A stretch of 50,351 nucleotides of DNA from Corynebacterium lipophiloflavum DSM 44291 (GTDB lineage: Bacteria; Actinomycetota; Actinomycetes; Mycobacteriales; Mycobacteriaceae), in assembly GCF_000159635.1 (NCBI RefSeq), contig NZ_GG667193.1, forward strand, positions 87,308 through 137,658. Direction: 5' to 3'. Shown one piece after another: positions 1 through 21,192 of this stretch (its first letter is position 1; each line of letters opens with the position of its first letter). The notes beneath the pieces were generated by a model, which worked only from the letters and a program-made list of their open reading frames with translations, made no database searches and was not told the DNA's origin. Position numbers and translations under genes: made by a program.

Positions 1-473
1 GACAGGCTCGCAGCCGCCAGCGCCCCGGTCGGTGTCAGCGAGGCCACCCACATTGCTGTCACTGATCCAGTGACCGCGATGAACGGCATGAGCCAGGCCG
101 CCACCGCCAGCGACCACTGGCCCTGTAGAAGCCTCTCGATGACAAAGGGGTTCCACACCGCCACCGTCATCGCGGCGGCGCGGGCGAAGGGCGACGTGCC
201 GAGCCGGTATCCCGCCCATGCCGCCGCGCACGCCGCCCCGACAACGATCAGGCGCACCGCAAGGACGGGAAAGACCAACTGCGACAGCACCGCGTCTTGG
301 GGCACGTTGCGCGCCGGTAGGTCCCCGAACCCCAAGGACGCGTGGGTGAGCGCCATCTCGGGCAGCACCACCATGTCGCGCAGCGCGAACGCCTCGCCGG
401 GCACCATGAAAGGCCAGGTCACCGCTACAACGAGGACAGCGGCCCACGCGCCCAGCCAGCTACCGGCGCGCAA
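1..473 (-). CDS. Polytopic membrane protein, 5' part only (cut by window start)
   Basis: An open minus-strand frame runs off the window start without a stop. I read 157 codons from a TTG at 473. The product is hydrophobic, with a first membrane segment right after the start, an extracytoplasmic loop, and a later stretch reading WNPFVIERLLQGQWSLA, a pattern I associate with large corynebacterial integral-membrane envelope proteins next to DUF3068 genes. In the frame before the inserted cassette (see 502-2428) a TAG lies just upstream (2505-2507 in the other repeat copy), so TTG 473 is the only plausible ancestral start, overlapping the DUF3068 stop. The present sequence also offers GTG at 542 and GTG at 560. 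The one at 560 overlaps the toxin stop as GTGA, so translation may now be coupled to the toxin gene. The family is not recognised with certainty; a role in lipoglycan or mycolate assembly is inferred from the neighbours. Confidence 0.75.
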   Translation of the reverse strand, partial: MRAGSWLGAWAAVLVVAVTWPFMVPGEAFALRDMVVLPEMALTHASLGFGDLPARNVPQDAVLSQLVFPVLAVRLIVVGAACAAAWAGYRLGTSPFARAAAMTVAVWNPFVIERLLQGQWSLAVAAWLMPFIAVTGSVTAMWVASLTPTGALAAASL

Positions 474-501
474 CGGCCACCGCCGCCCACGCGAGCGCGA
501 C
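426..501. repeat. 76-bp direct repeat, left copy
   Basis: These 76 bases are identical, base for base, to 2429-2504. The repeat covers the 3' end of the DUF3068 gene (including its stop) and the first codons of the downstream membrane-protein gene. This copy supplies the 5' end of the membrane-protein gene. The two copies bracket the nucleotidyltransferase/HTH cassette. Confidence 0.97.
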
Positions 502-556
502 CGCGCTACGTTGCGGGTGAGAGTTCTTAGAACTGTCCGCACACCGAGTGTATAGC

Positions 557-1345
557 TCACTCACAGTCCAACCCCTGCCTTAACCCATCTTGTAGTGCAT
601 CGACCTTCTCAATTCGGCTCTGCAGCGGGGCGCTTGGGCCGCGGCCTTCGAAGAGCTTGTCCGCGAGGTGCGGCCCCTGGTGCTGTGCAAAACGCTGCAG
701 AAGCTCCGCGGTTCTCTCTTGCCCCAAAGTCTTCGCGATCTCACTGCCCAATACCCATGCCGTCATAACGGCGACAACCCCGAAGTTTTCGTCATCATCG
801 GGAAACAGATCCCACAGGTCTTGCCTGGATTCGTACCAAGTTAGCACCAGTGCGAGATCGGATGCGTCCTTGTAAACACCTCCGGGCGCACGGTCGAACC
901 AGGCGTGGAGTTTAAGCGCCGCGAAACCGGGATAGGACGGTACCCGGATACACAGTCCATCACCGAAGTCCCTGTGCTCAGCGGAATCAAAAACCTCCTT
1001 GAAGCAGCTGACGTTGAAGCGTATGCCATCGACTGGTGAAACTTCACCAGGAGGATTCTCCACAGCACCGAAGGGAACGACATCTGAACGCATGCCGTCG
1101 ACGCAAATCTCCTGCCAGGGTCGGTCCTTGGTGGAGAAATGCTCCTTCAACCTGGCGAAGGATTCTAAGCCTTGCGCCGCCATGGCCAGATCGACATCGC
1201 GCGTCATCCGCAGCGGGGTCTCGCAGGAAAAATCCGCGTGGAGGATATCGCGGCATTTCGCCCCGATCAGCATGAAATTGTCCACATCGACCACACCGGA
1301 GATTCCCTTCAGCACCCGGCGGACATCATCAGCGTCAGATGTCAT
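557..1345 (-). CDS. AbiEii-like nucleotidyltransferase (probable toxin)
   Basis: A 262-residue protein with a nucleotidyltransferase fold. An IGAKCRD segment (about residues 27-33) is followed by TRDVDLA (48-54) with the two metal-binding aspartates D50 and D52. Later blocks SDVVPFG (about 85-91), the LKLHAW segment (about 150-155) and KDASDL match predicted nucleotidyltransferases of the COG4849 / AbiEii-AbiGii toxin type. In characterised AbiE systems the toxin is a nucleotidyltransferase and the partner is a winged-helix antitoxin; MenT relatives modify tRNA ends. The start overlaps the end of the upstream antitoxin-like gene by 11 bases, giving the usual antitoxin-then-toxin order. The stop overlaps a possible GTG start of the next gene. 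The substrate is unknown, and the TA function is inferred from family and pairing. Confidence 0.8.
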   Translation of the reverse strand: MTSDADDVRRVLKGISGVVDVDNFMLIGAKCRDILHADFSCETPLRMTRDVDLAMAAQGLESFARLKEHFSTKDRPWQEICVDGMRSDVVPFGAVENPPGEVSPVDGIRFNVSCFKEVFDSAEHRDFGDGLCIRVPSYPGFAALKLHAWFDRAPGGVYKDASDLALVLTWYESRQDLWDLFPDDDENFGVVAVMTAWVLGSEIAKTLGQERTAELLQRFAQHQGPHLADKLFEGRGPSAPLQSRIEKVDALQDGLRQGLDCE

Positions 1346-2351
1346 CTGACCCTCCGAGGTCCCCGGCGATCCTCGTCTCCAGCTCTCCAGCGATTTCCGA
1401 TACCCGCGGGTCGCCGACTGACCGAAGATCTGCCAGTACCACGATCGCAGGGGCGACAGGCCACGACCAAGTGGACTGCGTCAACGCGGAGGTGTTACGA
1501 GTCCGTGGGCTCCAGAAAGAACTCCTGATCACCACATTTCCTTGTGGATCAGCGCGCAGCCGGGCGCTTTTAACAATGCGGGCCATTTCAGCGGGGTTCT
1601 CGACGTAGAAGTGCGCGCTCTGCCCTCCCAGGATTTCAGTTGAGACGGCTGGTTCTCCACTTATCCACCCAAGCGGCGGACCTTGTTTGAACAGCTCGGT
1701 ATCTCCCGACCCTCGAAACAACTCCCGGCGTGCACCGAGGCCGCCGGCGTAGGAGTGTACCCAGGCGTCAATGAGGCCCCTCACGTTGGCGAAACGGTAG
1801 AAAGCTGGTTCGCCTTCGAGGTAGCCCGAATCCACCAATAGGGAAAGAGTCTTATGGGCTGTTGCGACGGACGTGCACGCTGCCGAGGCGAGCTCCCGGA
1901 TGGGGGCTCGAAGCAGTTCTGGTGTGGTAATCAGGGCCGCGCTGACTTGCGCTCGTTGGGGCGTGAAGAGGGAGGCCGTTCCCCGGCGCCGCCGCGATGA
2001 GCTCACCTGGCTGTTGCCGGCGGTCGTTCTTCCCCTGACATCGATATAGAGGTTTGGCCGGTTGATGTAGCAATTTCCGCGGCCATCGGCGAAAGCCTGG
2101 TCGAGTTCGCGAAATCGCTCCGCAACCCGGGGCGTAATTGCAGGTGCGAGGAGAATTTCGTGGGAGGCTACCCTGGTTTGGGAAGAGGGTTGCTGGTCGG
2201 GGTTTTCTTCATACCGGATGTGGAAAGTTGCGCCTTCTCCGCTGATTTCCAGCAGCGGCTTGCCCTCGGAGAGGATTATCCGGAGTGGCACGGAAGCGCT
2301 GGCGAAGTTGTCATTCCATTTCTCCCAGTTCACGTGGTCCATGGTGCTCAT
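1335..2351 (-). CDS. AbiEi-like winged-helix protein (probable antitoxin/regulator)
   Basis: A 338-residue protein translated immediately before the nucleotidyltransferase and overlapping it by 11 bases. Residues about 140-180 form a winged helix-turn-helix: LRAPIRELASAACTSVATAH is the recognition region and SGYLEG the wing. The C-terminal half, with GWISGEPAVSTEILGG and WPVAPAIVVLADLRS, resembles the conserved C-terminal part of the COG4861-type partners of COG4849 nucleotidyltransferases. The first 130 residues are variable. ATG 2351 and ATG 2342 are both possible starts; neither has a strong ribosome binding site. Autoregulation is likely, because a palindrome lies 23 bases upstream. Antitoxin assignment is by pairing and domain pattern, not by experiment. 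Confidence 0.72.
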   Translation of the reverse strand: MSTMDHVNWEKWNDNFASASVPLRIILSEGKPLLEISGEGATFHIRYEENPDQQPSSQTRVASHEILLAPAITPRVAERFRELDQAFADGRGNCYINRPNLYIDVRGRTTAGNSQVSSSRRRRGTASLFTPQRAQVSAALITTPELLRAPIRELASAACTSVATAHKTLSLLVDSGYLEGEPAFYRFANVRGLIDAWVHSYAGGLGARRELFRGSGDTELFKQGPPLGWISGEPAVSTEILGGQSAHFYVENPAEMARIVKSARLRADPQGNVVIRSSFWSPRTRNTSALTQSTWSWPVAPAIVVLADLRSVGDPRVSEIAGELETRIAGDLGGSDDI

Positions 2352-2373
2352 GGTAGCAGTCGTTTGCTATTGA

Positions 2374-2400
2374 CGAACGTTTAACAAAAGTGAACGTTCG
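2374..2400. promoter_or_regulatory. Palindromic operator candidate upstream of the TA-like operon
   Basis: CGAACGTT at 2374-2381 and its exact reverse complement AACGTTCG at 2393-2400 are separated by 11 bases. The same bases also give a direct repeat GAACGTT with a 17-base period. The element lies 23 bases before the ATG at 2351. This position and symmetry fit an autoregulatory operator for the winged-helix protein. Confidence 0.55.
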
Positions 2401-2428
2401 ACTTTTTGGAACGGCGGCACCGTGCGGG

Positions 2429-2504
2429 TACAACGAGGACAGCGGCCCACGCGCCCAGCCAGCTACCGGCGCGCAACGGCCACCGCCGCCCACGCGAGCG
2501 CGAC
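2429..2504. repeat. 76-bp direct repeat, right copy
   Basis: Identical to 426-501. This copy supplies the authentic C-terminal codons and stop (2465-2463) of the DUF3068 gene; past the stop the copied membrane-protein codons break off at 2429, where cassette sequence begins. Confidence 0.97.
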
Positions 2505-3173
2505 TACCGCAATAAAGCGCGTCACCCACGCAAGTACCTGCAGTCCCCGCAGCACATGCACCTCCGCCGCGGCCCGCTGCCACGCCACATCGCGGGATTG
2601 CTCCGACATGCGGTACAGCCCCGCAACGGGGCCCTCGCGTACCGTCCACGTCTCGTCCAGGACCTCACCCGTCCTGACCTGCAGGTCGATGATCCGCTGC
2701 GCCTCGTAGCCCGGCGCGGTGATGTTGGCGCGGTACTTGTACGTGTCCAGGCCGCCGACGCTGCCCGGGCCGAGGTAGTCGAGCCGCGCCGGGGTGTCGA
2801 ACGTCCCGGGCGCGAACGGGTCGGAATAGGGGTAGGAGATCCGCTCTGGGCGGTAGGGAAACACGTAGGTCAGCCCCGCCCGGCCATCGACGGGCAGGGC
2901 GGTGCTGGCGTGGACGGTGTAGGAGTCAGCCAACTCGTTCCCGCCGAGCACGGTCATGGCGTTGATGACAACCTGGCCGGACTCGGGGCCCTCGGACGTC
3001 GAGAACCTTTTCGTCAGCTCCGCCGGTCCATCGAAAGTGACCACGGAGGTCTCCCCGGGGTGGATCGTGCGCTGCTGCGCGATCACCACCGGCGAGATCA
3101 AGTTCAGGACGAAGCCGGCGACGAGCACCACGAGGCACTTCGCTAACGTCCGCCTGACTCCTACACTGTTCAT
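2463..3173 (-). CDS. DUF3068 (PorA-like fold) envelope protein
   Basis: A 236-residue protein with an N-terminal hydrophobic segment (about residues 10-32, signal anchor), an extracytoplasmic beta-rich domain and a C-terminal membrane helix (about 213-233, ending in VARR). The block PGTFDTPARLDYLG and the layout signal-anchor/domain/TM are those of the DUF3068 family, which includes mycobacterial PgfA/LmcA (MSMEG_0317), linked to mycolate trafficking and lipoarabinomannan. The last codons lie inside the 76-bp repeat; the reading frame is intact. The start ATG 3173 is head-to-head with the acyltransferase gene. It probably formed an operon with the membrane protein at 1-473 before the cassette arrived. 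Confidence 0.85.
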   Translation of the reverse strand: MNSVGVRRTLAKCLVVLVAGFVLNLISPVVIAQQRTIHPGETSVVTFDGPAELTKRFSTSEGPESGQVVINAMTVLGGNELADSYTVHASTALPVDGRAGLTYVFPYRPERISYPYSDPFAPGTFDTPARLDYLGPGSVGGLDTYKYRANITAPGYEAQRIIDLQVRTGEVLDETWTVREGPVAGLYRMSEQSRDVAWQRAAAEVHVLRGLQVLAWVTRFIAVVALAWAAVAVARR

Positions 3174-3206
3174 ATCGCTAACACTCTACTTCCCGAGCTC
3201 GAGGGC

Positions 3207-4226
3207 TTGCGCGCTGTCGCCGCCCTCGGCATCGTCGTCACGCACGTCGCCTTCCAGACCGCGACGTACCACCCGGTGCTGGAGCGCTTCGATTACTTCG
3301 TCGCGGTGTTTTACGCTTTGTCGGCGTTCCTGCTGACGCGCGGGGGACAGCGCCCGGGGTACTACCGCCGTCGCCTAGCGCGGCTCGCGCCTGCCTATCT
3401 CGTCTGCGTCGCAGTGGTTCTGGCGACGCTGCCGGAGCTGGCGCACATCTCGCCGCCGCAGGTTCTGGCGCAGGTCTTCATGGTGCAGATCTACCTTCCC
3501 GACGGCCTCGTCGCCGGGTTGACGCAGATCTGGTCGCTCTGCGTGGAAGTGGCCTTCTACCTGGTTTTGCCCCTGTACCTGCGCTTATCGACGCCCCACC
3601 GCACGCTCACCCTCGCCGTGACGATCCCCCTGTCACTGGCGTGGCCGTGGGCTATTGCGGGTGTTACGGCAGTGAACATGCAGATCTGGCCGCCGTCGTA
3701 CGTGCTGTGGTTCGCCGTCGGCCTCATCCTGGCGGAGCTGGAGCGGATCGGGGTGAGCTACCGCGGCCCCCGCCTGCCATTCGCACTTGTGGCGCTACCC
3801 GTTGCGTGGTTCGCGGGTGTCGTGGGGCCGGCGGGGTTGGAGCACCCCTCGCCGGCGGAGTTCAACGCGCGCGTGATCCTGGGCGCCCTGTTCGCGGCGC
3901 TGGTGGTTGCGCCGTTTGCCCTCTCGCCGCGCGAGGATGGCGTACTGGCTTCGAGCGCGATGCGACGTCTCGGGAGGTGGTCGTACTCGATCTTCCTGTG
4001 GCACGTCTGGGTGCTGTCGTTTGCCTTCCCGCTGCTCGGGGTGCCCGTCTTTGGCGGGCATTTCGCCGCGGTGCTGGTATTTACTGTGGCGTTTAGCGTG
4101 GCCGTGTCCTACGTCTCCTACGAGCTCGTGGAGGTGCCGGGTGCGCGCTGGGTCACCTCCCGGTTCCACCGAAACTCGGACACCCCTAACCTGGTCCGAG
4201 TTTCGGTGGAACCGGCGCACTCTTAG
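3207..4226 (+). CDS. Acyltransferase-3 family membrane protein (TmaT-like)
   Basis: An integral membrane acyltransferase of about 340 residues with roughly ten hydrophobic segments. The opening LPELEGLRAVAALGIVVTH and the later QIWSLCVEVAFYLVLPL are the two conserved blocks of acyltransferase family 3 (catalytic His in the first). Its place next to a DUF3068 gene and AftD suggests the corynebacterial trehalose-mycolate acetyltransferase TmaT, but O-acetylation of another envelope glycan is possible. The start is a problem. The conserved LPELEG begins at 3186, yet the first ATG/GTG/TTG in frame is the TTG at 3207. The frame is open back to a TAA at 3144. An ATC at 3174, directly against the ATG of the divergent gene, is the most natural alternative. 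The last 20 or so residues are encoded by a perfect hairpin (4160-4215). Confidence 0.85.
   Translation: MRAVAALGIVVTHVAFQTATYHPVLERFDYFVAVFYALSAFLLTRGGQRPGYYRRRLARLAPAYLVCVAVVLATLPELAHISPPQVLAQVFMVQIYLPDGLVAGLTQIWSLCVEVAFYLVLPLYLRLSTPHRTLTLAVTIPLSLAWPWAIAGVTAVNMQIWPPSYVLWFAVGLILAELERIGVSYRGPRLPFALVALPVAWFAGVVGPAGLEHPSPAEFNARVILGALFAALVVAPFALSPREDGVLASSAMRRLGRWSYSIFLWHVWVLSFAFPLLGVPVFGGHFAAVLVFTVAFSVAVSYVSYELVEVPGARWVTSRFHRNSDTPNLVRVSVEPAHS
4160..4215. repeat. 21-bp perfect inverted repeat, possible terminator or REP-like element
   Basis: Positions 4160-4180 and 4195-4215 are exact reverse complements, separated by a 14-base loop. The element overlaps the 3' end of the acyltransferase gene and lies between two convergent genes. 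No T-run follows, so a simple Rho-independent terminator is uncertain. The stem codes for the acyltransferase residues FHRNSD...VRVSVEP, an unlikely natural protein end, which suggests a repeat element that has added a tail. Confidence 0.8.
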
Positions 4227-4259
4227 GCGTCCGGGTTTAGGGGGAAGGGGAGGGCAGCG

Positions 4260-7175
4260 CTAGTCGTCGGGAAACGCCAGCGCCGCGACGGCCACGCACC
4301 CGGCGAAGAGCACCAGAACGGAAGAACCCGCGTAGTTCTCCCCCGGCCACGGGGCGCGCGCCAGCCACAGCCCCATGAAACCGGCGGCGCCGGCGCTTAA
4401 GCCCCACGCCGGGATGGCGGTGAAGCGCCGCACAGTCCACGCCAGCGCCACCGCAACCGCGCCGGGAACAAGGCCCACCGCCAGCGCCGTGAGCAGCGGG
4501 GATATCGGCGTCGACGCGGAAGACGGAGTGAAGCGCGAGATGGTGCGCCACCGCACCCACAGGCACAACGCCACGGTGAGTAGAGAGACCACGGCGCCGA
4601 GCAGCAGGCTCCACCGGTACGGAGCGTCGCCGGCAAAGCGCATCTCAAACGTTCCGCTCACACCCGGCGGCACGCGGAAGGCCTGCATGCCGGCGTCGAT
4701 ACGCACCGGCTCCAGCTCGACTCCGCCGACGCGTGCGCGCAGCCCCTCGTTGAAGCCGCGCGCGGTGAGGATGAGCTGCTCGCTTGTCGACGCCCCCACC
4801 ACGCCCCCGAAAGTCTCCGCGCGAGCCGTGGGCACCTCGCCGCGCGTGATGGTGATGGTCTCGGCGTCGGTGACTAGCTCGTGCGCCCCGGCGGGGAGGA
4901 ACACCTCGCCCTCGACCGCCTCGCCGTCGATGGTGGCGGGTGCGCTTAAACGCCACGTCGCGTCGGCGGCGGTGGTGAACCGGCGCTGCAACACGTCGGT
5001 GTGGGGGAGCAGGCGTTGGAAAAAGTAGGTGTCGGCCGTGCCGGGGACGTCGACAATGCGGCGCACCCCGGTGTCCAGCTCGGCGATCCCGACCGGTTCC
5101 GTCAGCTCGATGCGCACCGTGTCGCCGGGGACGCTGACCGTGCGCGGCTCGCCCGCTTCCAACGTCAGGTCCCGGGTCTCGGAGCCGGATACCACGCGCA
5201 CCACGGTGGAGTCGGTGGCGGTGATGGTGACGCGCCCGCCGGAGACCGTCGAGCTAATCCAGCCGAGATCACCCGGCGCGGGCCACCAGGCGGTGTCCTC
5301 CAGGCCGTCGAAGGCGGCGGTGAGCGAGCGCGAGGGATCCGCCCCACCGAAAGCAGTGGCGTCAGCGGCCGAGCTCGACGCCGAAGCGGTGCCGCCCGAC
5401 ATGTCCACCCCGACGCGCGTGCCGGCGGAGGGGTAGTCCGGCAGGCGGTTGCGCACGTCCGCACCCTCCTCGGGAGAGGCGAGGTGCGCCGAGACGGCCG
5501 AATCGAGGGTGCCGTAGTTGCGCACCGCGGCGGCCGGGGTGTCGGTGACAATCTGCGCCTCCGAATCCACCAGCTGGGCGGGGAAGTAGCCGTAGCGCTG
5601 CCACAACAGGGCCAGCACCTCGCCGCCGCCATCGACGCGCACGGGCGCAGCGGAGGTCACCATCATGCCGCGCTCGGGGGAGATGAGGTGGATCTCCACG
5701 TCGCCGAAGGCAACTTCAGGCTCGCCCGGCCACCGGCCACGCGCGCCGGAGTCGAGATCGCCGCGCACGACCACCGCGCCGACGCCGATGGAGCGCAGCG
5801 CGTCGGCGTCGAGGGCCTCCATCTGGCCGTCGAGGCCGCGGATCGCCTCCGGATCGACCAGGGGGATCGCGTCGCGCACGGCAAAGGGAACGTGTGCGAC
5901 GGCCTGGATCGGCTCGTCGCGTGTCCACCCCCACGTCTGCCGCGCGAAGGACGCCGGCGGGATGACCACGGTGCGGGTTGCGCCGACGTGCTGGTCAAGC
6001 CAGTGCCCCGCGGCAACCCAGTCCGGGGACACCTCCGACCACGTGCCGGTCGGCAACAGCCGCAGTGACCACGCCGGGGCCACGGCGGCGGCAACCACCA
6101 GAGACACCGCCACCACACCGGGGGCGCGCACCTTCGAAACAACCCAGCCCACGCCCAGCACCAGCGGCAGGCGCACCAGCGGATCAAACTTGTGTAGGTT
6201 GCGAAACGGGGCCAGGGGGCCGTCGTAAAGCGAAGTCAGAAAGTGCGCGGTGGCCAAGATGGCCACCCCAAGCGAGAACACAACCACGAGAAAGCCGCGC
6301 CAGGGCATGTCCGCGCGCGCCAGTCCGGCCAGCCCGAGCGCGGCGACGGCCATGGTCGCCAGGACGAAGACCGGCTCCGAAACCAGCAGGAACCCGGCGG
6401 TGCGCTCGGTATCCACAAACGGCGCCCAGCTCGTCGTGCCGCGCAACACCTCGGCCAGGTTGAGCCAGTAAGAGGTGACAAACGCCGACTCGATGAACTC
6501 GGTAAACGGCGGGGAGTAGCGCCCCAGCACCAGCAGCGGACCGAGCCACCAGGCGCTGACAAGGACGCAACCCGCGACGTAGAGCGCCGCGCGCGAGAAC
6601 TCGCGGCGCCACACAAGCAGCACGAACGCCGGCAGGCACGCCGCGATGGTGGCCGCGGCGTTGACCGCGCCCATCAGGGCCACCGCCACCAGCGCGGGCG
6701 CGACCTGCGGGCGCCGGTTGAGCAGCGGCAAAATGGTCCACGGCACCAACGCCACCGGCCACGCCTCGGAGGAAATCGCCGTCAGCGTCGTCACGATGCG
6801 CGGGCTCAGCGCGTAGAGCAGCGCGGGTATCACACCCGGCACACCCATGCGCCGCGCCACGGCGAGCGTGCCGGAGTACGCGATGCACAGCACAAGCACC
6901 CACCACAGTCGCTGCAGCACCCAATCAGGCAGTGGCAGCAGGAAGAACGGTCCCTGCGGAAAGAGGTAGCCGTAGGCCTGGTTCTGAATCTGGCCGAGCG
7001 TGAAGTGATCCGTCCACGCGCGCGTCGCCGAGGCGAGGAACGCGCCGGGGTTGTGGGTGAGGTTGAACTTGGTGTCCGCCGCGACTTGGCCCGGCGGCTG
7101 GGCGAAGGAGACGAGTGCCAGCGCCAACCAGCCGAGCAGGTGGGCGGCGGAGGGGTGATTCAGGCGGGCGCGCAC
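4260..7175 (-). CDS. aftD: AftD-like arabinofuranosyltransferase
   Basis: A 971-residue membrane glycosyltransferase of the GT-C type. After the first membrane helix (about residues 12-26) comes VAADTKFNL, with the acidic residue (D34) typical of the catalytic first extracytoplasmic loop. About ten hydrophobic segments follow to residue 380. Then comes a long periplasmic beta-rich region (about 400-850, carbohydrate-binding-like, with AFDGLEDTAWWPA resembling a discoidin-type module), and finally four membrane helices. This architecture is that of AftD (DUF3367), which adds arabinofuranose to arabinogalactan/lipoarabinomannan from decaprenyl-phosphoarabinose. Mycobacterial AftD is longer (about 1400), and the shorter form is usual in corynebacteria. 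The start is GTG 7175, eight bases after the stop of the DUF2613 gene, with which it likely forms an operon. Confidence 0.9.
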   Translation of the reverse strand: MRARLNHPSAAHLLGWLALALVSFAQPPGQVAADTKFNLTHNPGAFLASATRAWTDHFTLGQIQNQAYGYLFPQGPFFLLPLPDWVLQRLWWVLVLCIAYSGTLAVARRMGVPGVIPALLYALSPRIVTTLTAISSEAWPVALVPWTILPLLNRRPQVAPALVAVALMGAVNAAATIAACLPAFVLLVWRREFSRAALYVAGCVLVSAWWLGPLLVLGRYSPPFTEFIESAFVTSYWLNLAEVLRGTTSWAPFVDTERTAGFLLVSEPVFVLATMAVAALGLAGLARADMPWRGFLVVVFSLGVAILATAHFLTSLYDGPLAPFRNLHKFDPLVRLPLVLGVGWVVSKVRAPGVVAVSLVVAAAVAPAWSLRLLPTGTWSEVSPDWVAAGHWLDQHVGATRTVVIPPASFARQTWGWTRDEPIQAVAHVPFAVRDAIPLVDPEAIRGLDGQMEALDADALRSIGVGAVVVRGDLDSGARGRWPGEPEVAFGDVEIHLISPERGMMVTSAAPVRVDGGGEVLALLWQRYGYFPAQLVDSEAQIVTDTPAAAVRNYGTLDSAVSAHLASPEEGADVRNRLPDYPSAGTRVGVDMSGGTASASSSAADATAFGGADPSRSLTAAFDGLEDTAWWPAPGDLGWISSTVSGGRVTITATDSTVVRVVSGSETRDLTLEAGEPRTVSVPGDTVRIELTEPVGIAELDTGVRRIVDVPGTADTYFFQRLLPHTDVLQRRFTTAADATWRLSAPATIDGEAVEGEVFLPAGAHELVTDAETITITRGEVPTARAETFGGVVGASTSEQLILTARGFNEGLRARVGGVELEPVRIDAGMQAFRVPPGVSGTFEMRFAGDAPYRWSLLLGAVVSLLTVALCLWVRWRTISRFTPSSASTPISPLLTALAVGLVPGAVAVALAWTVRRFTAIPAWGLSAGAAGFMGLWLARAPWPGENYAGSSVLVLFAGCVAVAALAFPDD

Positions 7176-7474: not shown

Positions 7475-8632
7475 ATGGGCCGAGTGCGCATCGCTGTGGC
7501 CACGGTGACGTCTTCGGCCCTGGTCAGCACGGTGTTGGCGTGTGCGCCGGCGCCGCACGTGGTGGAGACGACGCTGACGGTGACCTCCACGCAGACTGTA
7601 ACCAGCACGGCCCCGCCGCCCCCGCCGAGCGCCGCGCAGCGCGTCCCGGACGACCTGCGCGCGAAGGTCGCCTCGCTGATGGTCGTCGGTGTAGCCAATT
7701 ACGACCAGGCCCGTTTCGCCCTCGATCAGGGCGCCGGCGGGTTGTTCATCCCCTCGTGGGCGGACCCGGCGCTGCTTGTCGAGCCGGGCCGCGACATCAA
7801 CGCCCTGCGCGCCGAGTACGACCGGCCGTTCTCCGTCGCCGTGGATTTCGAGGGCGGGCGAGTGCAGCGCCACACGCAGGTTTTCGGGCAGTGGATGCCG
7901 CCGCGCGCGCTGGCCGGGCAACCGGACGAAGTAATCCAGGGCTCCGGCTACGACATCGGCCGCTCGCTGCGCGAGCGCGGCGTCAACGTCGACTACGCCC
8001 CGCTGCTTGACCTCGACGTCACCGGCCTCAACATCATCGGCGACCGCTCCTTCGGCGCGGAGCCGGGCGACGTGGCGCGCGTCGGCGGGCTGTTCTCGCA
8101 AGGGCTTATCGACGCCGGCGTGACCCCCACCTTCAAGCACTTCCCCGGCCACGGCCGCGCCACGGGGGACACGCACCTGACGCTGGCCACGACACCTCCC
8201 CTCGACGTGCTGGAGGGCTCGGACATGCAGCCTTACGCAGAGGTGCTGCCTTCCCGCCCGACGGCGTCGGTGATGATGGGCCACATGATCGTGCCGGGCC
8301 TTGGCGGCGGCGACGTGCCCAGCTCCTTGAACCCGGAGGCCTACCGCATCCTGCGCGAGGGCGATTACCCGGGCGGCGAGCCCTTCGACGGGGTGATCGT
8401 CACCGATGACCTGTCGGGGATGCGCGGCATCACGGACTACCGCCCCACCCCGGAGTCGGTGCGCGACGCGATCGCCGCCGGGGCGGATCAGGCACTGTGG
8501 TCATCGGGGGAGGACCTCGTGGCAATTATCGACCTGGTTACCTCGGCCGCCGCGGACGGGACAATCGCGCCCGAGCGCATCGACGCCGCCGCGGTGCGCA
8601 CGCAGCAGCAGTTAATCGATGTCGGGCTCTAA
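7475..8632 (+). CDS. Glycoside hydrolase family 3 lipoprotein (NagZ-like)
   Basis: A 385-residue GH3 enzyme. The N-terminus is a signal sequence ending near VLAC (Cys about 23), consistent with a lipoprotein, followed by a Thr/Pro-rich linker. The catalytic domain has VAVDFEGGRVQR, the family signature KHFPGHGRATGDTH (about residues 219-232, with the acid/base His of NagZ-type enzymes) and VIVTDDLSGM carrying the nucleophile Asp (about 311). NagZ-type enzymes release terminal beta-N-acetylglucosamine from muropeptides; in actinobacteria they often act outside the membrane. An AAAGGAGG ribosome binding site precedes the ATG by a few bases. It is followed 15 bases later by the VanW gene, pointing to a joint role in cell-wall turnover. 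Confidence 0.88.
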   Translation: MGRVRIAVATVTSSALVSTVLACAPAPHVVETTLTVTSTQTVTSTAPPPPPSAAQRVPDDLRAKVASLMVVGVANYDQARFALDQGAGGLFIPSWADPALLVEPGRDINALRAEYDRPFSVAVDFEGGRVQRHTQVFGQWMPPRALAGQPDEVIQGSGYDIGRSLRERGVNVDYAPLLDLDVTGLNIIGDRSFGAEPGDVARVGGLFSQGLIDAGVTPTFKHFPGHGRATGDTHLTLATTPPLDVLEGSDMQPYAEVLPSRPTASVMMGHMIVPGLGGGDVPSSLNPEAYRILREGDYPGGEPFDGVIVTDDLSGMRGITDYRPTPESVRDAIAAGADQALWSSGEDLVAIIDLVTSAAADGTIAPERIDAAAVRTQQQLIDVGL

Positions 8633-8647
8633 GGTAATCTTGTTGAG

Positions 8648-10342
8648 GTGACTACGGTAAATGCAACAGGTGCCCGCGGTGGGCGCGGGGTCAGCACCGG
8701 GAAGATTCTCCTCGGTGTGCTGCTCGGTGTGCTCGCGGTGCTGCTCGCGATCTACCTCGCCGACCTCGCAATGAACCGCGGGAACGTGCCGCGTGGCACC
8801 GCCGTCGGCGGTGTCGAGATCGGCGGCATGAGCCACGACGAGGCCACCGCGAAGCTCGAAGCAGAGCTCGGCGAGACGGCGAGTAACCCGGTGACGGTGA
8901 AGGCAGCGACGCAAAGCTCGCAGCTCGTGCCCGCCGAATCCGGCCTCGGCATCGACTGGGAGGCGACCGTAGCAAGCGCGGGCGAAGAGTCCGCGAACCC
9001 GTTCACTCGCCTCGCCGGGTTGTTTCGCACACGCGAAGTCGACATTGTGTCGACCGTGAACGAGGCCGCTCTCACCCCGCAGCTTGAGCGAGTGGCCGGC
9101 GAGTTGCACCTCGACCCCGCCGACGGCGCGATCGCCATCGACGGTGGCGAGGCGAAAGTGACCGAACCGGTGCCGGGCCAGGAGGTTGACAAAACCGAGC
9201 TGTTCGAACGTGTCACCACCGGCTGGCTCAACCCCGACGGTGTGGAGGTCGAGCCGCGCGAGATCGAACCCGCTATCGGCGACCAGGCGATCAAGGAAGC
9301 CTTAGACGGGCCGGTTAAGGCGGCGCTGTCCGGCGCCTTGACGCTGCACGGCCGCGACGGCATCGACGGTGTCATTGCCCAAGAGCGCATCGGCGAGGTC
9401 GTCCAGTTCCCCAACGTCGACGGCAAAATCGCCCCCGAGGTGAACGTGGAAAACGCCCAGGGCATCTTGGGCGAGCAGCTCGCTGCGACCGAGACGCAGA
9501 TGAAAAACGCGCGCGTGCTGCCCGGCGGCGGGGTGGAACCGTCCGTCGACGGCTCCATTATCGACTGGGAGGCCGCGATGGACGGTTTCGACGAGCGGTT
9601 GATCGGTTCCGCCGAGCGCACCTGGGACGCGCAATACAAGGCCCGCCCGGCCGACTTCACTACAGAGGAAGCCCAACGTGCCACCTTCGACGAGGTGGTG
9701 GGAAGTTTCACCACCGGCGGGTACAGCGGCGCATCCGGCACGAACATCGCTACGGTGGCCCGCGTTGTCAACGGCGCAATTGTCAACCCCGGTGAAACCT
9801 TCTCGCTCAACGGCTACACCGGCGCGCGCGGTGCCGCGCAGGGTTACGTCGAGTCGGTCATCATCGAAAATGGACGCCCCGGCAAGGCAGTGGGTGGCGG
9901 AATCTCCCAATTTGCCACGACCTTGTACAACGCGGCTTACTTTGCCGGCATGACGGATGTCGCCTCCACCCCGCACTCCTACTACATCTCACGCTACCCG
10001 GCTGGCAGGGAGGCGACCGTGTATGAAGGGGCGATTGACCTGCAATTCCGCAACGATTCGCCCCACCCGGTCAAGATTTCCACGAGCGTCGGGGGCGGCG
10101 AGGTGACGGTGAGCCTGATGGGCACCAAGACCGTCGAGGTGGAGTCCATCAACGGAGGGCGCTGGGCCTACACCTCGCCGAAGCCCGTGACCGTCACCAG
10201 TGGTGACTGCATTCCCTCGGGCGGGGCGCAGGGCTTTACCACCTCCGATACCCGGATTGTGCGTGACCTCAGCGGCAATGAGATCAGTCGCAACACCTCC
10301 ACCACGGTCTACGACCCGCAGCCGATAGTGCGCTGCGAGTAG
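8648..10342 (+). CDS. VanW/YoaR family cell-wall protein
   Basis: A 564-residue membrane-anchored protein. It starts at GTG 8648, 15 bases after the GH3 gene. One membrane helix lies at about residues 18-40, followed by two peptidoglycan-binding-4-type repeats (about 50-330, each beginning near GVEIGGMSHDEA or an equivalent), then the VanW domain (about 370-480) with FSLNGYTGARGAAQGY, GGGISQFATTLYNAAYFAG and SRYPAGREATVYEG. VanW-domain proteins are extracytoplasmic and wall-associated; no enzymatic activity is established. Pairing with a GH3 hydrolase suggests envelope maintenance. Confidence 0.88.
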   Translation: MTTVNATGARGGRGVSTGKILLGVLLGVLAVLLAIYLADLAMNRGNVPRGTAVGGVEIGGMSHDEATAKLEAELGETASNPVTVKAATQSSQLVPAESGLGIDWEATVASAGEESANPFTRLAGLFRTREVDIVSTVNEAALTPQLERVAGELHLDPADGAIAIDGGEAKVTEPVPGQEVDKTELFERVTTGWLNPDGVEVEPREIEPAIGDQAIKEALDGPVKAALSGALTLHGRDGIDGVIAQERIGEVVQFPNVDGKIAPEVNVENAQGILGEQLAATETQMKNARVLPGGGVEPSVDGSIIDWEAAMDGFDERLIGSAERTWDAQYKARPADFTTEEAQRATFDEVVGSFTTGGYSGASGTNIATVARVVNGAIVNPGETFSLNGYTGARGAAQGYVESVIIENGRPGKAVGGGISQFATTLYNAAYFAGMTDVASTPHSYYISRYPAGREATVYEGAIDLQFRNDSPHPVKISTSVGGGEVTVSLMGTKTVEVESINGGRWAYTSPKPVTVTSGDCIPSGGAQGFTTSDTRIVRDLSGNEISRNTSTTVYDPQPIVRCE

Positions 10343-10351
10343 CGCGCCGCG

Positions 10352-11973
10352 CTAGTAGGTCACGTCGCGGGTGCCGAACATGTCGAGGTCCATCGGGCAC
10401 GTGTCGTCGCCAAGCTCACGTTCGATCAGCGCGTTGAGCTTGGCCAACAGCGTGGCGACTAACTCTTCGTCGTAGCGAGGGTGCTCCGGGTTGCCCAGGT
10501 TTTCCAGCTCATTAGGGTCCTCCACCAGATCGTGCAGGGACACATCCGAGGTGGCGTAGAGCTCCTCAACCGTGGACGGGGTGCAGTACTCTTCCGGTGA
10601 GAACCAACGCACCAGTTTGTAGAGCCCATCGACGACCGCGCGGAAGAAGGATCGGCGCGTGAAGTCGGGCGCGCCGAACTTCTCACCCGCTTCGCGCATC
10701 TTTTCCTCGCGCAACTCTGTGTCCAGCGGCAGGTCCACCAACTCGCCGAGTGCGCCTGTCACAGCCCACGCCGGGTCGAGTTGGTGCAATCCTTCCCACA
10801 TCAACAGCGCACCGTCACCGGGCTCGCTGGCGCTGCCGCGCGGCGGTACCGTCGAGGTTGGGTTGGTCAGCACTGCGGAGAGGTTGCGGCCCGGTAGAGC
10901 GGGGTAGCGTCTAGTGCGGGTGGCGTCGTCAAGCCCGGCAAAAGCGAGGGCGGTGGGCACGAGATCGATGTGCGAACCGACAGCGGTGCTCTCGACGCCC
11001 TGCGCCCCGCCGGGGACCACGGCTGTCATATTCACCACGGTCGCCTCGTCGAAGTGGATGCCACCCTTCTGCGTCTTGCCGTGGGCGCCGTTCATCTCGC
11101 CGTGGTCGGACGTGAAGATGACCACCGTGTTGTCCCACAGGCCCTGGGCGGTGAGCTCGTCGAGGATCTTGCCGAACTCGGCATCGACAAGGCGCATGCA
11201 GTTAATCAGGTAGTTGCGACGCTGCTTCCAAATATCGGCGCGGCCCTTCGGCACGTCGGTGTAGTTGAGCTGCGCGAACTCCTTGTAGTTGTGCGGGCCT
11301 AGCGGTTGCTGCGCCATGTCGTCGTCGACCGATTCCGGAAGGGCAGGGTCCCACCAGCGCTCGAGCTTCGCCATGGGGGCAAACCGTGCAGCTTCGGGCG
11401 CATCACGCCATTTTCGTGGCCCAGCTCGTCCTGATCCGCCAGGTAGTACATAATGTCGTGGGGGTTGACCATGAATGAGATTAGCAGCCAGGGCTGGTCC
11501 TTCGGTGCTTTATATCGCAGCCAATCGACTGTCTCCATCGCAACCGTGCCGTCCTTGACCTGGCCCTCGAGCGGGCGGCCCCAGTTGTCACCCCAGAGCT
11601 GGTAGTCGGAGAAGCCGAACTTCTCGAGCACCTCCGAGGTGCCAAAGCCGGTGTCCGAGAGGTGCCACTTGCCCTTGAACGCGGTGTAATAGCCCTGTTC
11701 GCGCATCATGTGCCCGAGCGTGGGGGTGTCCGGTGTCAGCGGCTTGATCCAGGCGAAGTCCGTGTTGTCCCACGTGCCCAGCGTTTTCGCGTGCTGGCCG
11801 GTCCACATCGCGGTACGAGACGGTGTGCACTGCGGAACCGTGCAATAGTGTTGATCGAGGGTGACGCCTTTGTCCATCAGCGACTGCAGTGCGGGAAGCT
11901 CGACGTCGTCGGGAAGTTCCATGCGCATGTCTCACTGGTCCATGCAGAGAATGAGAATGTGGGGTTGTGTCAT
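10352..11973 (-). pseudogene. Sulfatase, broken by a stop and a frameshift
   Basis: The full frame begins at ATG 11973 (MTQPHILILCMDQ, the metal-binding Asp region of sulfatases), but TGA at 11934-11932 is codon 14. The same frame continues with ADMRMELPDD-like sequence after the stop, through CTPSR, the formylglycine motif (C-x-P-S-R), and KGKWHL. Near 11385 one base is missing (HG/FAPMAKLE), shifting the rest (from about 11374) into another frame, which carries TSDHGEMNGAHGK and runs to the stop at 10352. Re-joined, it gives about 540 residues, normal for the family. It lies 29 bases after the transporter gene at 12003-12833 on the same strand. Substrate unknown; probably an organic sulfate ester. 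Confidence 0.85.
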
Positions 11974-12002
11974 GCCACCCCATAGTATCGACCTTTACGT
12001 TG

Positions 12003-12833
12003 CTATTTTTGGGCATAGGGGCGGGTGATGCCGCCGGGCATGTCCGCTTCAAGGGGTTCTAAGAACGCAATGGCGGAGTCGTTGCCCAAGCGAGTAGCGA
12101 GCTTGAGCAGCACAAACATCATCAACGTGTTGCGCTGCGCGGTGGCCAATGCACCGAGCTGAGCGTGGTTCGTGTTGCCCTGGCCAGTACCGTATCCCAT
12201 GTAGAAGGCGATCAGAAGCACGACGACACCGATGATGATCGCGATCCACAGGTCAACGTCCGCCATCTCGGGCAGGTAGCCAATGATGGTGAAGATGAGC
12301 AGCCCGTAGAGCGCCAGGTTAGAAATCTTCGCCACCCAGGGCTGCATGGTCGCCGCGAGCTTTTCGACGCCAACGTGGCAGACCATGCCGAGCGCCAGCG
12401 GGAGGATCATCTGCAGAAGTAGCGGCTGGGCGATCTGCCACACGTCGACCTCGATGCCGTCGATAAGGCGTGGCAACAGGAAAGGCAAAAAGCCGACGGT
12501 GGAGACCATGAGTACCATCTGTACGGTCGCGCCGGCAGCGATGTCGTTGTCGCTTTCCTGCGTTAGCTTGATAAGCAGCGGGGCCCCGGCGGCGCAGGCG
12601 AACAGGATCAGCGCCGCCGAGTACGGCGCGCCGATGCCGGTGATGATGATGAACAACAGCATCACACCGGGCACGACTAGGAAGTTAGCCACAACCATGC
12701 GGGTGAGAAACTGCCAGTCGCGCAGGTGCTTGGCAATGCGCGCCGGGTGCTGGGTAAGGCCCACGTTGAACATGCTGGTGAGTATGAAGAGCGTGGTGAG
12801 CGTACTCGCTAAGGATTGGAAGAACTCAAACAT
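12003..12833 (-). CDS. BASS-family (bile acid:sodium symporter-like) transporter
   Basis: A 276-residue protein with about eight hydrophobic segments, FILTSMFNVGLTQHP at the start and FACAAGAPLLIKLTQ in the middle. These resemble the bile-acid:sodium symporter (BASS/SLC10) fold. ATG 12833 follows a GCGAGG ribosome binding site; a longer frame upstream would overlap the divergent gene and is not supported. The last 25 residues are polar (EADMPGGITRPYAQK), so the protein ends one helix earlier than many relatives. Lying upstream of the sulfatase in the same transcription direction, it may import the sulfatase substrate or export a product. Some SLC10 members carry sulfated organic anions, so this fits but is not proof. 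Confidence 0.72.
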   Translation of the reverse strand: MFEFFQSLASTLTTLFILTSMFNVGLTQHPARIAKHLRDWQFLTRMVVANFLVVPGVMLLFIIITGIGAPYSAALILFACAAGAPLLIKLTQESDNDIAAGATVQMVLMVSTVGFLPFLLPRLIDGIEVDVWQIAQPLLLQMILPLALGMVCHVGVEKLAATMQPWVAKISNLALYGLLIFTIIGYLPEMADVDLWIAIIIGVVVLLIAFYMGYGTGQGNTNHAQLGALATAQRNTLMMFVLLKLATRLGNDSAIAFLEPLEADMPGGITRPYAQK

Positions 12834-12865
12834 GGGCTGACCTCGCCACTGGTAGGGTCGCTGAC

Positions 12866-13783
12866 ATGGCCAGGCTGACAAAGCTAATCGACGTCGCGCC
12901 GACCACCTTTACGGCCGGGTCTAACGATTTCTACCCTGAGGAGTCCCCGCAGCGAACAGTCCGCGTCGACGCGTTTGCGCTGGAGGCCGACCCCGTCACC
13001 AATGCCCGATTCGCACGGTTCGTCCAAGAGACGGGCTACGTCACCGTGGCCGAGCGGGTGCCATCCGCGGAGGAATTCCCCGGCGTCGACCTGGAGCTGC
13101 TGGTCGCGGGCGCGCTGGTGTTTCAGCCCACCACGGGCCCGGTGGACCTGCGCGACTGGCGGCAGTGGTGGCGCTTCGAGCCTGGGGCGTCGTGGCGCGC
13201 GCCGTACGGGCCGTCCGGCGTGAGCCACGAGGACATTCCGGATCACCCGGTGGTCCAGGTGGCCTAGCCGGATGCCGTGGCGTACGCGCGGTGGGCGGGG
13301 CGCCGGCTGCCGACCGAGCTGGAACTCGAGTGCGCTGCCCGCGCCGGGCGCGCGGCAACCACCTACGTCTGGGGTGAGGAGTACGCGCCGGACGGGATCG
13401 TCCGCGCCAACACCTGGCAGGGTCGCTTCCCCTACGACAACCAGGGATGGGGTACGACGTCGCCGATGGGCCAGTTCGGCCGTAACCCGTGGGGTTTTTC
13501 TGACCTGATTGGCAACGTGTGGCAGTGGAGCTCGACCTACTACGCGTCCGGTGCGGCGCGCGGTGTCGTCGAGCGAGCCGGCTCGTGCTGTGCGCCGTCG
13601 TCAGCCCTGGATGAGGCGCGCCGCGTGGCGACGGCTCCGGGCGAGACCTACCCGCGCCGGGTGGTCAAGGGCGGCTCGCACCTGTGTGCGCCCGAGTACT
13701 GCCACCGCTACCGCCCGCCCGCGCGCCAAGGCCAGTTGGGGGACTCTGCGACCACGCATATCGGGTTCCGCTGCGCGGCGTAA
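12866..13783 (+). pseudogene. Formylglycine-generating enzyme, interrupted by an in-frame TAG
   Basis: One continuous frame of 306 codons, divergent from the transporter, interrupted only by TAG at 13265-13267 (codon 134). The position corresponds to the conserved Trp in the HPVV-V-W-DA-AYARWAG block of the FGE/SUMF1 family, so TGG changed to TAG is the likely event. The downstream part keeps RLPTE, GNVWQW and the two active-site cysteines in GGSHLCAPEYCHRYR. FGE oxidises the Cys of C-x-P-x-R sulfatases to formylglycine; its client, the sulfatase at 10352-11973, is also broken. A GTG at 13277 could restart translation but would give only the C-terminal half. Confidence 0.85.
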
Positions 13784-13792
13784 GTGCCGGTG

Positions 13793-14623
13793 TTACTGCG
13801 GGGTGTGGGCCTCGCGCTCGAGTCCCCACCGCGTCAGCTCGGCGACGTTCGGGTCGCGCGGCAGCAGCGAGTGGATCACCGGGGCGAAGCCCGGGTAGGC
13901 CTTTTCCAGGTCGATGTTGATCACGTCCGCCCCGTCGACGCTGTCGAGGATGGACGCCTCGTTTGGGGTGACCGTGCGGTCGGCCGGGGTGTAGATCGAG
14001 GTGTAGACCACCCGCGGGTCGGAATCGGGCAGGTCCCCGATCTCCTCGAAAAACGGCGAGCCCGCCAGCTGCTGCAGCGCGCTCGTGCTGGCGACGGCCT
14101 CGGCGATGCCGGGGCGGCGCTGGATAAACGGGATGACGCGCTCGGCCAACCCGCCGATGTCGGTGCCGTGGAAGTTCGCCCCGATGGCCACGACGCGGCG
14201 GACGTTCTCGGCGCCGCCGCCGGCGATGTAGAGCTTGGTCAGCAGCCCGCCCTGGGAGTGGGCAACAATGTCGACCTTGTCTGAGCCTGTCGCGGCTTTG
14301 ACCCTTTCCACGTTGTCGGCGAGCTCGCGAACGAGGTCGTTGAGGTCGCCGAAGCCGTGCAGTACGGGGATGATCGCGGCCAGGCTCGCGCGATCGTTGG
14401 TGCCGTAGTCGAAGCCCCACGTCCAATAACCGTGTTCGCGCAGGTACAGGGCGTTGACGGTGAACGTGTTCGTGGCGCTGGTGAACCCGTGGACATACAG
14501 CACCGGGGTCGGGTGGGAGGGTGAGAAGTCCGGGTCATTAAACGGTAGCTCGGGTCGCCGCGTGGCGCCGATGTAGATGCCAGCGGCGTACATTCCCAGG
14601 AGCGCGAGGTGGGTGAGCTTCAT
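13793..14623 (-). CDS. Secreted or membrane-anchored alpha/beta-hydrolase (lipase)
   Basis: A 276-residue lipase-type hydrolase. It starts with a short hydrophobic signal-anchor (about residues 4-19). The oxyanion-hole motif VLYVHGFTSATNT lies at about 41-53, and the nucleophile elbow AHSQGG puts Ser at 123. The later ASILDSVDG and the VIHSLL segment (about 255) are candidates for the catalytic Asp and His. This arrangement matches EstA/LipA-like triacylglycerol lipases of actinobacteria. It is convergent with the formylglycine-generating enzyme gene (9-base gap) and on the same strand as the MFS gene upstream. Confidence 0.85.
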   Translation of the reverse strand: MKLTHLALLGMYAAGIYIGATRRPELPFNDPDFSPSHPTPVLYVHGFTSATNTFTVNALYLREHGYWTWGFDYGTNDRASLAAIIPVLHGFGDLNDLVRELADNVERVKAATGSDKVDIVAHSQGGLLTKLYIAGGGAENVRRVVAIGANFHGTDIGGLAERVIPFIQRRPGIAEAVASTSALQQLAGSPFFEEIGDLPDSDPRVVYTSIYTPADRTVTPNEASILDSVDGADVINIDLEKAYPGFAPVIHSLLPRDPNVAELTRWGLEREAHTPQ

Positions 14624-14656
14624 ACCTAAAGCCTAGTGCCGCGGGGGCGCGATGAG

Positions 14657-16537: not shown

Positions 16538-16658
16538 GGAACCTCTTGTGACGTGAGAAGACGAGTTACTGACCAGTGGCTTCGGTGGCGTCATCAGGTT
16601 TACGCGCGTGGTGCGCTACATGTCTCGTGTTCCAGGCCGACACTCAACCATAGCGTTT

Positions 16659-17915
16659 TCAAATTTTCGCTGCTAATTGGGGCTTGCGTGCGCGGACGGT
16701 GTGCGCGGCGATGAAGGTGGTGATCGGAACCGCCAGGACCAGCGAAATCGCGCCGATCGCCGAGCGGATCAGCTCGGTGGCAACCACGTCGGAGGACAGC
16801 GCCTGCATCAGCGGGCGGTCGGAGACGCTCAGCAGCATGGCCAGCGGCAGCGCGGTGCCCAGGTACGCCAGCACGAGGGTGTAGACCATCGAGGCGATGT
16901 GGTCGCGGCCGACGCGCAATGCCGCGGCGAAGGTGGAGCGCGCCGAGGACTCCGGGGAGGCGAGGAAGAGTTCGTGGACGGTGGAGGATTGCGCGATGGT
17001 GACGTCGTTAAGCACGCCGAGCGCTCCAATGATGAAACCCGCCATGAGCAGCCCGGGGACGGATACCTCAGGCAGGTAGAGGTGGATGAGCAGGTTGTCC
17101 TCGTTGCCCAGGCCGCGCAGTTGAGAGGTGTCCACCGCGACGTTGCCTAGTACCGCCGCCAGCGCCATCGCGGCCAGTGTTCCGGCGAGCGCTGACGCTG
17201 ATTTCCAATTGACGCCGTGAACCAAAAACAGCACGGGGAAGAGGATCGCGGCGCCGGCAGCCATCGCCACCGCCGTGGGGTCGGTGCCGCGCAGCAGCGC
17301 GGGGATGAGGAAGCCGAACACGACCAACCCGGTCAGCACCAGCCCGACGAGGCCCAGCAGGCCGCGCAGGGCGCCGATGGCCACGATGAGTATCACCGCC
17401 ACGGCGATCCACAGCCAGATTGCCTGGCTGCGCTCCATGTCCAAAAGCGTGTAGGTGGTGGTGTCGCCGTCGGTGTTGGTTGCCAGGGTGATCGCGTCGC
17501 CGGTGGCTAGGGTGGATTCCCCGGGCAGCCCGGAGCTTGAAAGAAGTGTGCGTTTGCCCACGTCAGGGCCGGATGTCAGCTTGACGATGGAGAGCTCGCA
17601 CACCGGCTCGTCGGCGATGGTGCCCAGCGGCACGGGCTGCGGGGTGGCGGGGCGAGGTTCGCCCTCGAAGACGCGCCCCACGTCGGGGGAGGAGCAGGGG
17701 CCCTGGCGGTGGTCGATGACGGTGCCGTTGACCGCGTCGGCGGCCATGGATTGGGACTGCTTGAAACCCGGCCCGGGGGTGGGGGCGGGCCCGGTCGGTC
17801 AGAGGACGGCGAGCGCGACAAGTGTCGCGACGAAGGCTGCGACGAGGACCCCGGCGAGGATGAGCCGGGCGGTAGAGCGTGTGCGCGGCGGCATTATTGT
17901 TGCGTGCTTTCCCAT
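16659..17915 (-). pseudogene. YibE/F-family membrane protein with in-frame TGA
   Basis: The frame from ATG 17915 encodes a short arm and a membrane helix (ARLILAGVLVAAFVATLVALAVL), then TGA at 17801-17799 (codon 39), then continues in the same frame for 380 codons. After the stop come an extracytoplasmic region with VCELSIVKLTSGPDVG, and then seven or eight membrane helices including GLVVFGFLIPALLRGTDPTAVAM and the GVLNDVTIAQSSTVHEL block of YibE/F proteins. The stop is explained by TGG to TGA or CGA to TGA. An ATG at 17747 could restart translation without the first helix, leaving the YibE/F core topology uncertain. YibE/F function is unknown (membrane transport suspected). Confidence 0.75.
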
Positions 17916-17988
17916 GCTGATAACCGTAGTCGTTAATGATGCGGGTTCCGCGAAGGCGCTAGACTCTGACGCGCGTAAGGGAGGGCGT

Positions 17989-18097
17989 ATGGCAAAGACG
18001 GTAGCGAAGGTTTTTGGGGTAATTGTCGCCGCTGCTTAACGACGGCCCCGAGCGCGACGCGCACCAGTGGCTGGTTGAGCGTGGGTGCCTGGGTTAA
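17989..18097 (+). pseudogene. Small ORF, possibly frameshifted
   Basis: ATG 17989 follows a good site (GGGAGG) and gives 16 residues, MAKTVAKVFGVIVAAA, then TAA. A shift at the GCTGCT run would continue as LLNDGPERDAHQWLVERGCLG to TAA at 18095-18097. The first part looks like the start of a membrane helix. It could be a short leader peptide, or the remains of a 36-residue membrane protein. I do not recognise it. Confidence 0.3.
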
Positions 18098-18133
18098 GCT
18101 GCACTAGACCGAGCTGTCTGTTAGGGTGGTCGG
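18098..18133. other. Intergenic sequence before the riboswitch
   Basis: Together with 17916-17988 and 18225-18273 this makes up the gene-poor stretch 17916-18273. I see no further gene. A promoter for the riboswitch-led transcript should lie here; no convincing -35/-10 pair was recognised. Confidence 0.4.
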
Positions 18134-21182: not shown

Positions 21183-21192
21183 AGTAGCGCCC

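Follow-up and report, generated by a model that had tools for sequence, protein, structure and literature searches.

A predicted AbiE-type toxin–antitoxin cassette enclosed by perfect 76-bp copies of host sequence at a gene overlap of Corynebacterium lipophiloflavum

How a small toxin–antitoxin (TA) unit without a recombinase arrives at a new chromosomal site is, to our knowledge, largely unexplained. The question is raised by a stretch of 50,351 nucleotides from Corynebacterium lipophiloflavum DSM 44291 (contig NZ_GG667193.1 of assembly GCF_000159635.1, positions 87,308 to 137,658), hereafter called the window, near the left end of which a two-gene cassette, predicted to encode a TA pair of the AbiE type, stands between two direct repeats at the junction of two other genes. 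These repeats were described in the original prediction, made from the letters of the window, as perfect and 76 bp long, and a repeat scan of positions 1–6000 confirmed this (76 nt, 100% identity), the runner-up there being a pair of only 38 nt with 71% identity. The copies enclose 1,927 bp with two minus-strand genes that overlap each other by 11 bp, and the GC content of this segment is 58.8% (64.7% in the whole window; window median, 64.9%). All genes of the region are co-directional and follow on the minus strand in the order upstream gene, copy 2, antitoxin, toxin, copy 1, downstream gene. Coordinates are collected in Table 1.

The nature of this structure can be judged from relatives in which the same junction is filled or empty. 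One genome per species was compared, and genomes and loci are designated by G and L numbers, G000 being the genome of the window. In G020, a one-contig genome of another species, 2,079 bp match with one mismatch and with both repeats. The flanks of the window, joined through one copy, give an alignment of 1,297 bp with G179 in which no gap is opened (76.7% identity); G162 aligns at 74.9% with one gap, and five further, more distant relatives align over most of the length at 66–72% with 5 to 14 gaps; the counterpart of the 76 bp is single and lies inside genes both in G179 and in G162. The upstream gene used as a query gave 30 loci: those of G000 and G020, 9 without a match to both neighbours and 19 with both. 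The neighbour genes abut or overlap (estimated spacing from −19 to +17 bp) in 18 of these 19 loci of other species, while the spacing of the 19th (L052), estimated from a partial match, is 209 bp. The cassette occupies this junction only in G000 and G020, and two genomes which carry a cassette elsewhere (G245 and G139) have the junction empty. Because the joined flanks align to G179 without a gap and 18 of the 19 loci are plainly without insertion, the structure is, on the evidence of these alignments, an insertion, and the 76 bp are duplicated host sequence which is single in the empty state. The proposal that a TA-type pair had been inserted at a gene junction is thereby supported, the empty sites for which a search had been suggested exist, and the cassette is not an old possession of all relatives.

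Both neighbours are whole, as had been proposed. The upstream PorA/DUF3068-like gene (27.8 bits against PF11271, cut-off 29.5) terminates within copy 2. The frame of the downstream envelope gene, in the single-copy state, opens at position 500, and its first start codon is the TTG at 473, within copy 1; the two neighbours would then overlap by about 14 bp, an extent which depends on this inferred TTG start. In the genome of the window the downstream gene enters a 480-base gap of N immediately to the left of position 1, and a Pfam search with its window part gave no match, while in G020 this gene is complete (484 aa). The insertion had been called precise and non-damaging. It did leave both genes whole, but this may be a matter of survivorship, because between overlapping neighbours any insertion without a duplication would interrupt one gene.

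Open reading frames (ORFs) and Pfam searches revealed no integrase or recombinase gene between the copies, only the two cassette genes being convincing, as had been noticed originally. No tRNA was found near the junction. None of the 18 inverted pairs of at least 18 nt has its arms at 502 and 2428, and the stretch from the toxin stop codon to copy 1 shows no more than ordinary RNA structure (z −0.20). An ordinary DNA transposon is ruled out by the 76-bp duplication together with the missing end repeats, in agreement with the initial remark that the insertion is unlike those of common transposons.

The proteins of the cassette are predicted to form an AbiE-type (type IV) TA pair. The 338-aa product matches AbiEi_2 (PF09952) with 83.7 bits at a cut-off of 21, and its residues 150–180 give weak helix-turn-helix matches below cut-off. 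The 262-aa product scores 22.3 bits against AbiEii (PF08843), just below the cut-off of 22.5, and 9 of 11 members of the toxin family match AbiEii at E 0.001; of two more distant relatives, the toxin of G466 reaches 20.0 bits and that of G578 has no match. Residues D50, D52 and D88 of the toxin are invariant, and its structure model (pLDDT 85.3) has a MenT-like fold with MenT1 as the best PDB match. A sequence search of solved structures gave nothing convincing for either cassette protein. Of 13 cassettes, G020 being not counted separately, 9 have the palindrome GAACGTTC in the 300 bp before the antitoxin gene, its expected number being 0.0186 per 300 bp in the same stretches; G139 and G202 have ATGATCGATCAT in the operator position, and the broader pattern seen by eye is GTTCA, six bases and TGAAC, repeated. 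Since autoregulation by AbiEi is known from the available text of PMC7725324, the palindrome is probably the AbiEi binding site.

Homologues of the antitoxin and of the toxin were found in 14 of 242 genomes of the genus, the same 14 for both genes, and the antitoxin profile found matches in 10 of the 397 genomes searched in the order and, at the level of the phylum, in 10 of 396 (each of the latter counts includes G000, and that of the order also G017). A search of plasmids with the cassette DNA gave no match, while a search with the antitoxin protein gave 18 plasmid records, none of them from Corynebacterium and each below 60% identity. In phages the same protein gave 0 records, and none of 32 cassette candidates in viral contigs was confirmed; with distant plasmid matches only, residence of the cassette on plasmids or phages was rejected. 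Back-translated antitoxin patterns pointed to 27 stretches in genome contigs, none of them confirmed. For the core of the 76-bp repeat there were no exact 23-mer matches in genome contigs, from which the window's genome or near genomes are possibly excluded, and one 19-mer match in a viral contig, without surrounding similarity by eye, was taken as chance.

The association with direct repeats is not confined to the window. Direct repeats were sought within 600 bp on both sides of 24 cassettes with usable flanks, and 600 random segments of equal length from the same stretches served as control. Left out of the 24 were G020, which has the insertion of the window, three phylum hits with an undetected toxin (L113–L115) and three short contigs (L107, L110, L111); the omission of L110, which has identical 141-bp ends, does not favour target duplication. 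At E 1e-10 flanking repeats were detected for 6 of the 24 cassettes and for 2 of the 600 random segments (Fisher p 4.5e-8), both control positives being one repeat pair met twice. At E 1e-4 the numbers were 7/24 and 14/600, and without two pairs formed by the operator 4 of 22 cassettes remain (p 1.7e-5); the random segments are not independent, and these p-values are rough. The six strong cases are the window (76 bp, 100%), G183 (186 bp, 88.7%, with 75 bp perfect), G578 (52 bp, 98%, the 3' part of a tRNA-Ala gene, with no other convincing gene inside), G813 (35 bp, 94%), G118 (41 bp, 90%) and G017 (42 bp, 88%). Beyond the 600-bp limit, 40-bp perfect copies of a tRNA-Phe 3' part flank the cassette of G466 along with two ORFs without a Pfam match. 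A survey of exact direct repeats of at least 40 bp spaced 0.5–6 kb apart, in 29 stretches (531,363 bp) mostly chosen for holding a cassette, found that all of them bracket an AbiE cassette, except those of the repetitive L026. Sequence and length of the repeat differ at each target (76 bp in the window, about 190 bp in G183), the G183 pair being mosaic and the others of tRNA, operator or other origin. The same cassette family does stand at other junctions, as the original prediction had suggested looking for, and its interpretation is largely upheld; specificity for this junction is the part left unsupported by repeats which differ elsewhere in sequence and length.

Some of these loci have peculiarities of their own. 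In G118 (L022, 9411–9451 and 11376–11416) and G017 (L028, 8825–8866 and 10672–10713) the AbiEi operator array stands at both cassette ends in the same orientation; the toxin gene of G017 (L028, 8964–9482) looks truncated at 172 aa, and this cassette may be decaying. No empty sites were found for these two cassettes in a search with the right flank only, and four matching loci compared with G017 lack the left flank. L110 (G991:C201), a contig of 3,568 bp with identical 141-bp ends, reads as a 3.4-kb circle or tandem unit which by eye holds an AbrB/PIN-like pair, an AbiE pair and an MsrA-like gene; the value of 141 may equal an assembler k-mer overlap. Diverged AbiE cassettes of three species (L025, L029, L030) share a neighbourhood with tRNA-Ser genes, a possible hotspot, and the region around the G139 cassette has long near-tandem repeats to its left and to its right (L026, 2303–3304 and 13631–15156).

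The second protein-coding case, G183, bears on how the repeats arose. Its cassette stands between a membrane-protein gene and rpsL, both named by eye, and in G024, 88% identical over the membrane-protein gene, the target of about 193 bp is single. Both copies of G183 are G024-like on their outer side (15 sites versus 2 in the left copy, 13 versus 4 in the right; Fisher p 0.00036 for the like/unlike pattern), and the switch occurs inside a 75-bp identical block in which the copies share six differences from G024. Next to the right copy there are 60 bp more from the neighbouring gene. Judged from this pattern, the mosaic is what a crossover with a diverged donor leaves behind. Part of it could also stem from decay of redundant halves, though not the 75 unchanged middle bases, and no donor was found among the 242 genomes of the genus.

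Comparison of G000 with G020 gives a hint of how the cassette of the window spread. Their divergence is 6.56% to the left of the site; from −2504 to 4436 it falls to 0.33%, 0.05% and 0.52%, the middle value being that of the cassette with its repeats; from there to 7500 it is 3.95%, and farther right it alternates between 0.14% and 15.7%. The filled allele lies within a tract that the two species came to share recently, which would follow if recombination in the flanks had moved it.

Based on these data we propose, with confidence about evenly balanced, that the window shows an insertion of an AbiE cassette with a long target duplication, later spread by homologous recombination in the flanking DNA. 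The incoming DNA would have been joined at two points 76 bp apart, for instance on sister copies of the replicating chromosome. Both genes stay whole only if the duplication covers their overlap, and outcomes of this kind would be the ones that survive and are seen. After landing, the cassette would pass to relatives through recombination in the flanks, while recombination between the repeats could remove it cleanly; first landing and later spread possibly use different routes. Retention would be provided by its addictive product. AbiEi is predicted to repress the operon via the GAACGTTC palindromes, and an unchecked AbiEii/MenT-like enzyme is predicted to block tRNA charging. More tentatively, as a generalization that may well prove too broad, AbiE-type cassettes of Actinobacteria can be regarded as bare mobile addiction units of about 1.9 kb which have no recombination gene and land repeatedly by duplicating 40–190 bp of any target, be it a gene overlap, a gene start or a tRNA end; the landing would be harmless, the exit ready-made, and addiction would pay for retention.

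Several observations weigh against this proposal. The link with flanking repeats is not universal: 17 of the 24 cassettes have none at E 1e-4, though old repeats may have decayed there. Nor do the six strong cases need to share one mechanism, for the repeat of G578 consists of the 3' half of a tRNA, as is usual at integrase sites, that of G813 may be of another nature, and those of G118 and G017 are the cassette's own operator and not the target. Only one independent insertion is known at the site of the window, and no microhomology is evident by eye at its two joints. For the mosaic of G183, recombination with a diverged donor is an explanation at least as good as a fresh target duplication. 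As to the later spread, low divergence between G000 and G020 is met elsewhere (0.84% at 7501–21250, 0.32% at 22301–24800 and 0.14% at 27101–29200), and since such tracts are common in this pair, the one that holds the cassette does not prove its transfer.

A tyrosine recombinase acting in trans, with the cassette as an integrase-less passenger, the 3' end of the PorA/DUF3068-like gene as its target and the 76-bp copies as attL and attR, is an explanation that we consider possible but unlikely. It is favoured by the related cassettes between duplicated tRNA 3' parts (tRNA-Ala in G578, tRNA-Phe in G466). Moreover, the same tRNA-Ala gene holds elements with a Phage_integrase ORF in at least 2 of 4 relatives (not every ORF was scanned), so that such sites can also serve passengers that lack an integrase. 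In these relatives (L149, L150, L151, L152) other elements occupy the gene, bounded by copies of its 3' half, and one of them has a reverse transcriptase with an HTH_17 domain. Three cassettes also adjoin a tmRNA gene, a usual integration site; they belong to one genus (G338, G543 and G567, at L104, L105 and L106), and no copy of the tmRNA end was found on their far side. However, the unit of the window has no integrase and its junction no nearby tRNA, and an att core of 76 bp would be a long one. The nearest two relatives found are only about 75–77% identical here, and an incoming attP would therefore have had to originate in the same species or a near-identical one. Also, none of the 19 loci of other species has a confident insert at the junction (the 209 bp of L052 being an estimate from a partial match), and the sole viral 19-mer match of the repeat is without further similarity by eye.

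That a circle with the cassette and a piece of the target entered by a single crossover (Campbell-type integration), the duplication consisting of donor plus recipient, seems to us doubtful for the window, even though the mosaic copies of G183 compared with G024 show just the footprint of such an event and the extra 60 bp at the right copy look as if a longer donor piece had entered. Neutral decay of redundant halves could mimic part of that pattern, the unchanged 75 bases excepted, and the window copies are identical, which leaves no footprint to be read. Identity over 76 bases at a fast-evolving site would require a donor of the same or a near-identical species with the cassette already in place, so that the first insertion stays unexplained; besides, 76 bp is short for a RecA-dependent crossover. 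An assembly artefact or an unrelated later duplication is hardly credible, because, although the genome of the window is a 77-contig draft with a gap of N 425 bp to the left of copy 1, the one-contig genome G020 shows the same structure with both repeats, and the two assemblies would have to contain an identical error.

Other features farther along the window were registered in passing. A perfect 22-bp inverted repeat with a 12-bp loop (4160–4215) between converging acyltransferase and AftD-like genes is likely a two-way terminator, a SAM-IV riboswitch occupies 18137–18258 (69 bits in Rfam, gathering threshold 38), and a tRNA-Gly gene lies at 20457–20530. At 26890–26940 G020 has about 2.7 kb extra, with an identity of about 84% just to the left, which makes another variable site.

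Table 1. Elements of the cassette locus and its neighbours in the window
Feature	Position	Strand	Basis
Downstream neighbour, 5' part of gene, which runs into a scaffold gap beyond the left end of the window	1..473	-	Counterpart in G020
Copy 1 of the host-derived 76-bp direct repeat, in which the downstream envelope gene is inferred to begin	426..501		Single copy in relatives; start-codon reading
Inserted AbiE-type cassette, 1,927 bp, without a recombinase gene	502..2428		ORFs, empty-site alignment, GC 58.8%
AbiEii/MenT-like nucleotidyltransferase, predicted toxin, 262 aa	557..1345	-	PF08843, structure model
AbiEi-type predicted antitoxin/repressor, 338 aa	1335..2351	-	PF09952
Predicted AbiEi operator: GAACGTTC palindrome at 2392-2399 and a weaker copy adjoining	2371..2400		9/13 cassettes
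Copy 2 of the host-derived 76-bp direct repeat, with the 3' end of the PorA/DUF3068-like gene	2429..2504		Repeat scan, empty-site alignment
Upstream neighbour, PorA/DUF3068-like gene, intact, 236 aa	2463..3173	-	PF11271, 27.8 bits

Among known systems the gene order resembles that of the AbiE type IV TA modules in the available text of PMC7725324, where an AbiEi partner likewise lies upstream of an overlapping AbiEii/DUF1814-type nucleotidyltransferase and behind a palindromic operator; the predicted toxin of the window differs in scoring just below the Pfam AbiEii cut-off. The MenAT nucleotidyltransferase toxins of mycobacteria (MenT1, MenT3), as presented in the accessible part of PMC10435456, are among the systems closest to it. 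As in integrase-driven elements at tRNA genes, which keep the gene whole by direct repeats of its end and to which the AbiE cassettes of G578 and G466 conform, the repeats here preserve host genes, but the window has neither integrase nor tRNA, and its repeat crosses the overlap of two protein genes. The small strain-variable segments described in PMC2884548 also lie between direct repeats; 66–94% of those are shorter than 30 bp, in contrast to the perfect 76 bp of the window.

The closest precedent concerns restriction–modification (RM) genes, for which insertion with a long target duplication is described in the accessible passages of PMC1643837 and PMC3874152, both of which cite for Helicobacter pylori Nobusato et al. 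2000 (Gene 259:99). Those insertions share with the window a small addictive unit, a relative with an empty site and a long, variable duplication of the order of 100 bp; the window differs in its TA unit of AbiE type, its Corynebacterium host and its overlapping genes, and the RM passages settle no mechanism. The available part of PMC2654758 merely likens the apparent mobility of RM and TA systems, and a survey of titles and the beginnings of abstracts, which is no proof of absence, found no TA case with a long target duplication. The precedent has thus been known since 2000 for RM genes, and its AbiE version is a new variant. The locus offers a clean case: its repeats are perfect, and sequenced species show the site both filled and empty. 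It extends the observation of 2000 to a TA family in another phylum. The recurrence of flanking repeats (6/24 versus 2/600) and the 2-kb size of the unit make the question of its mobility testable.

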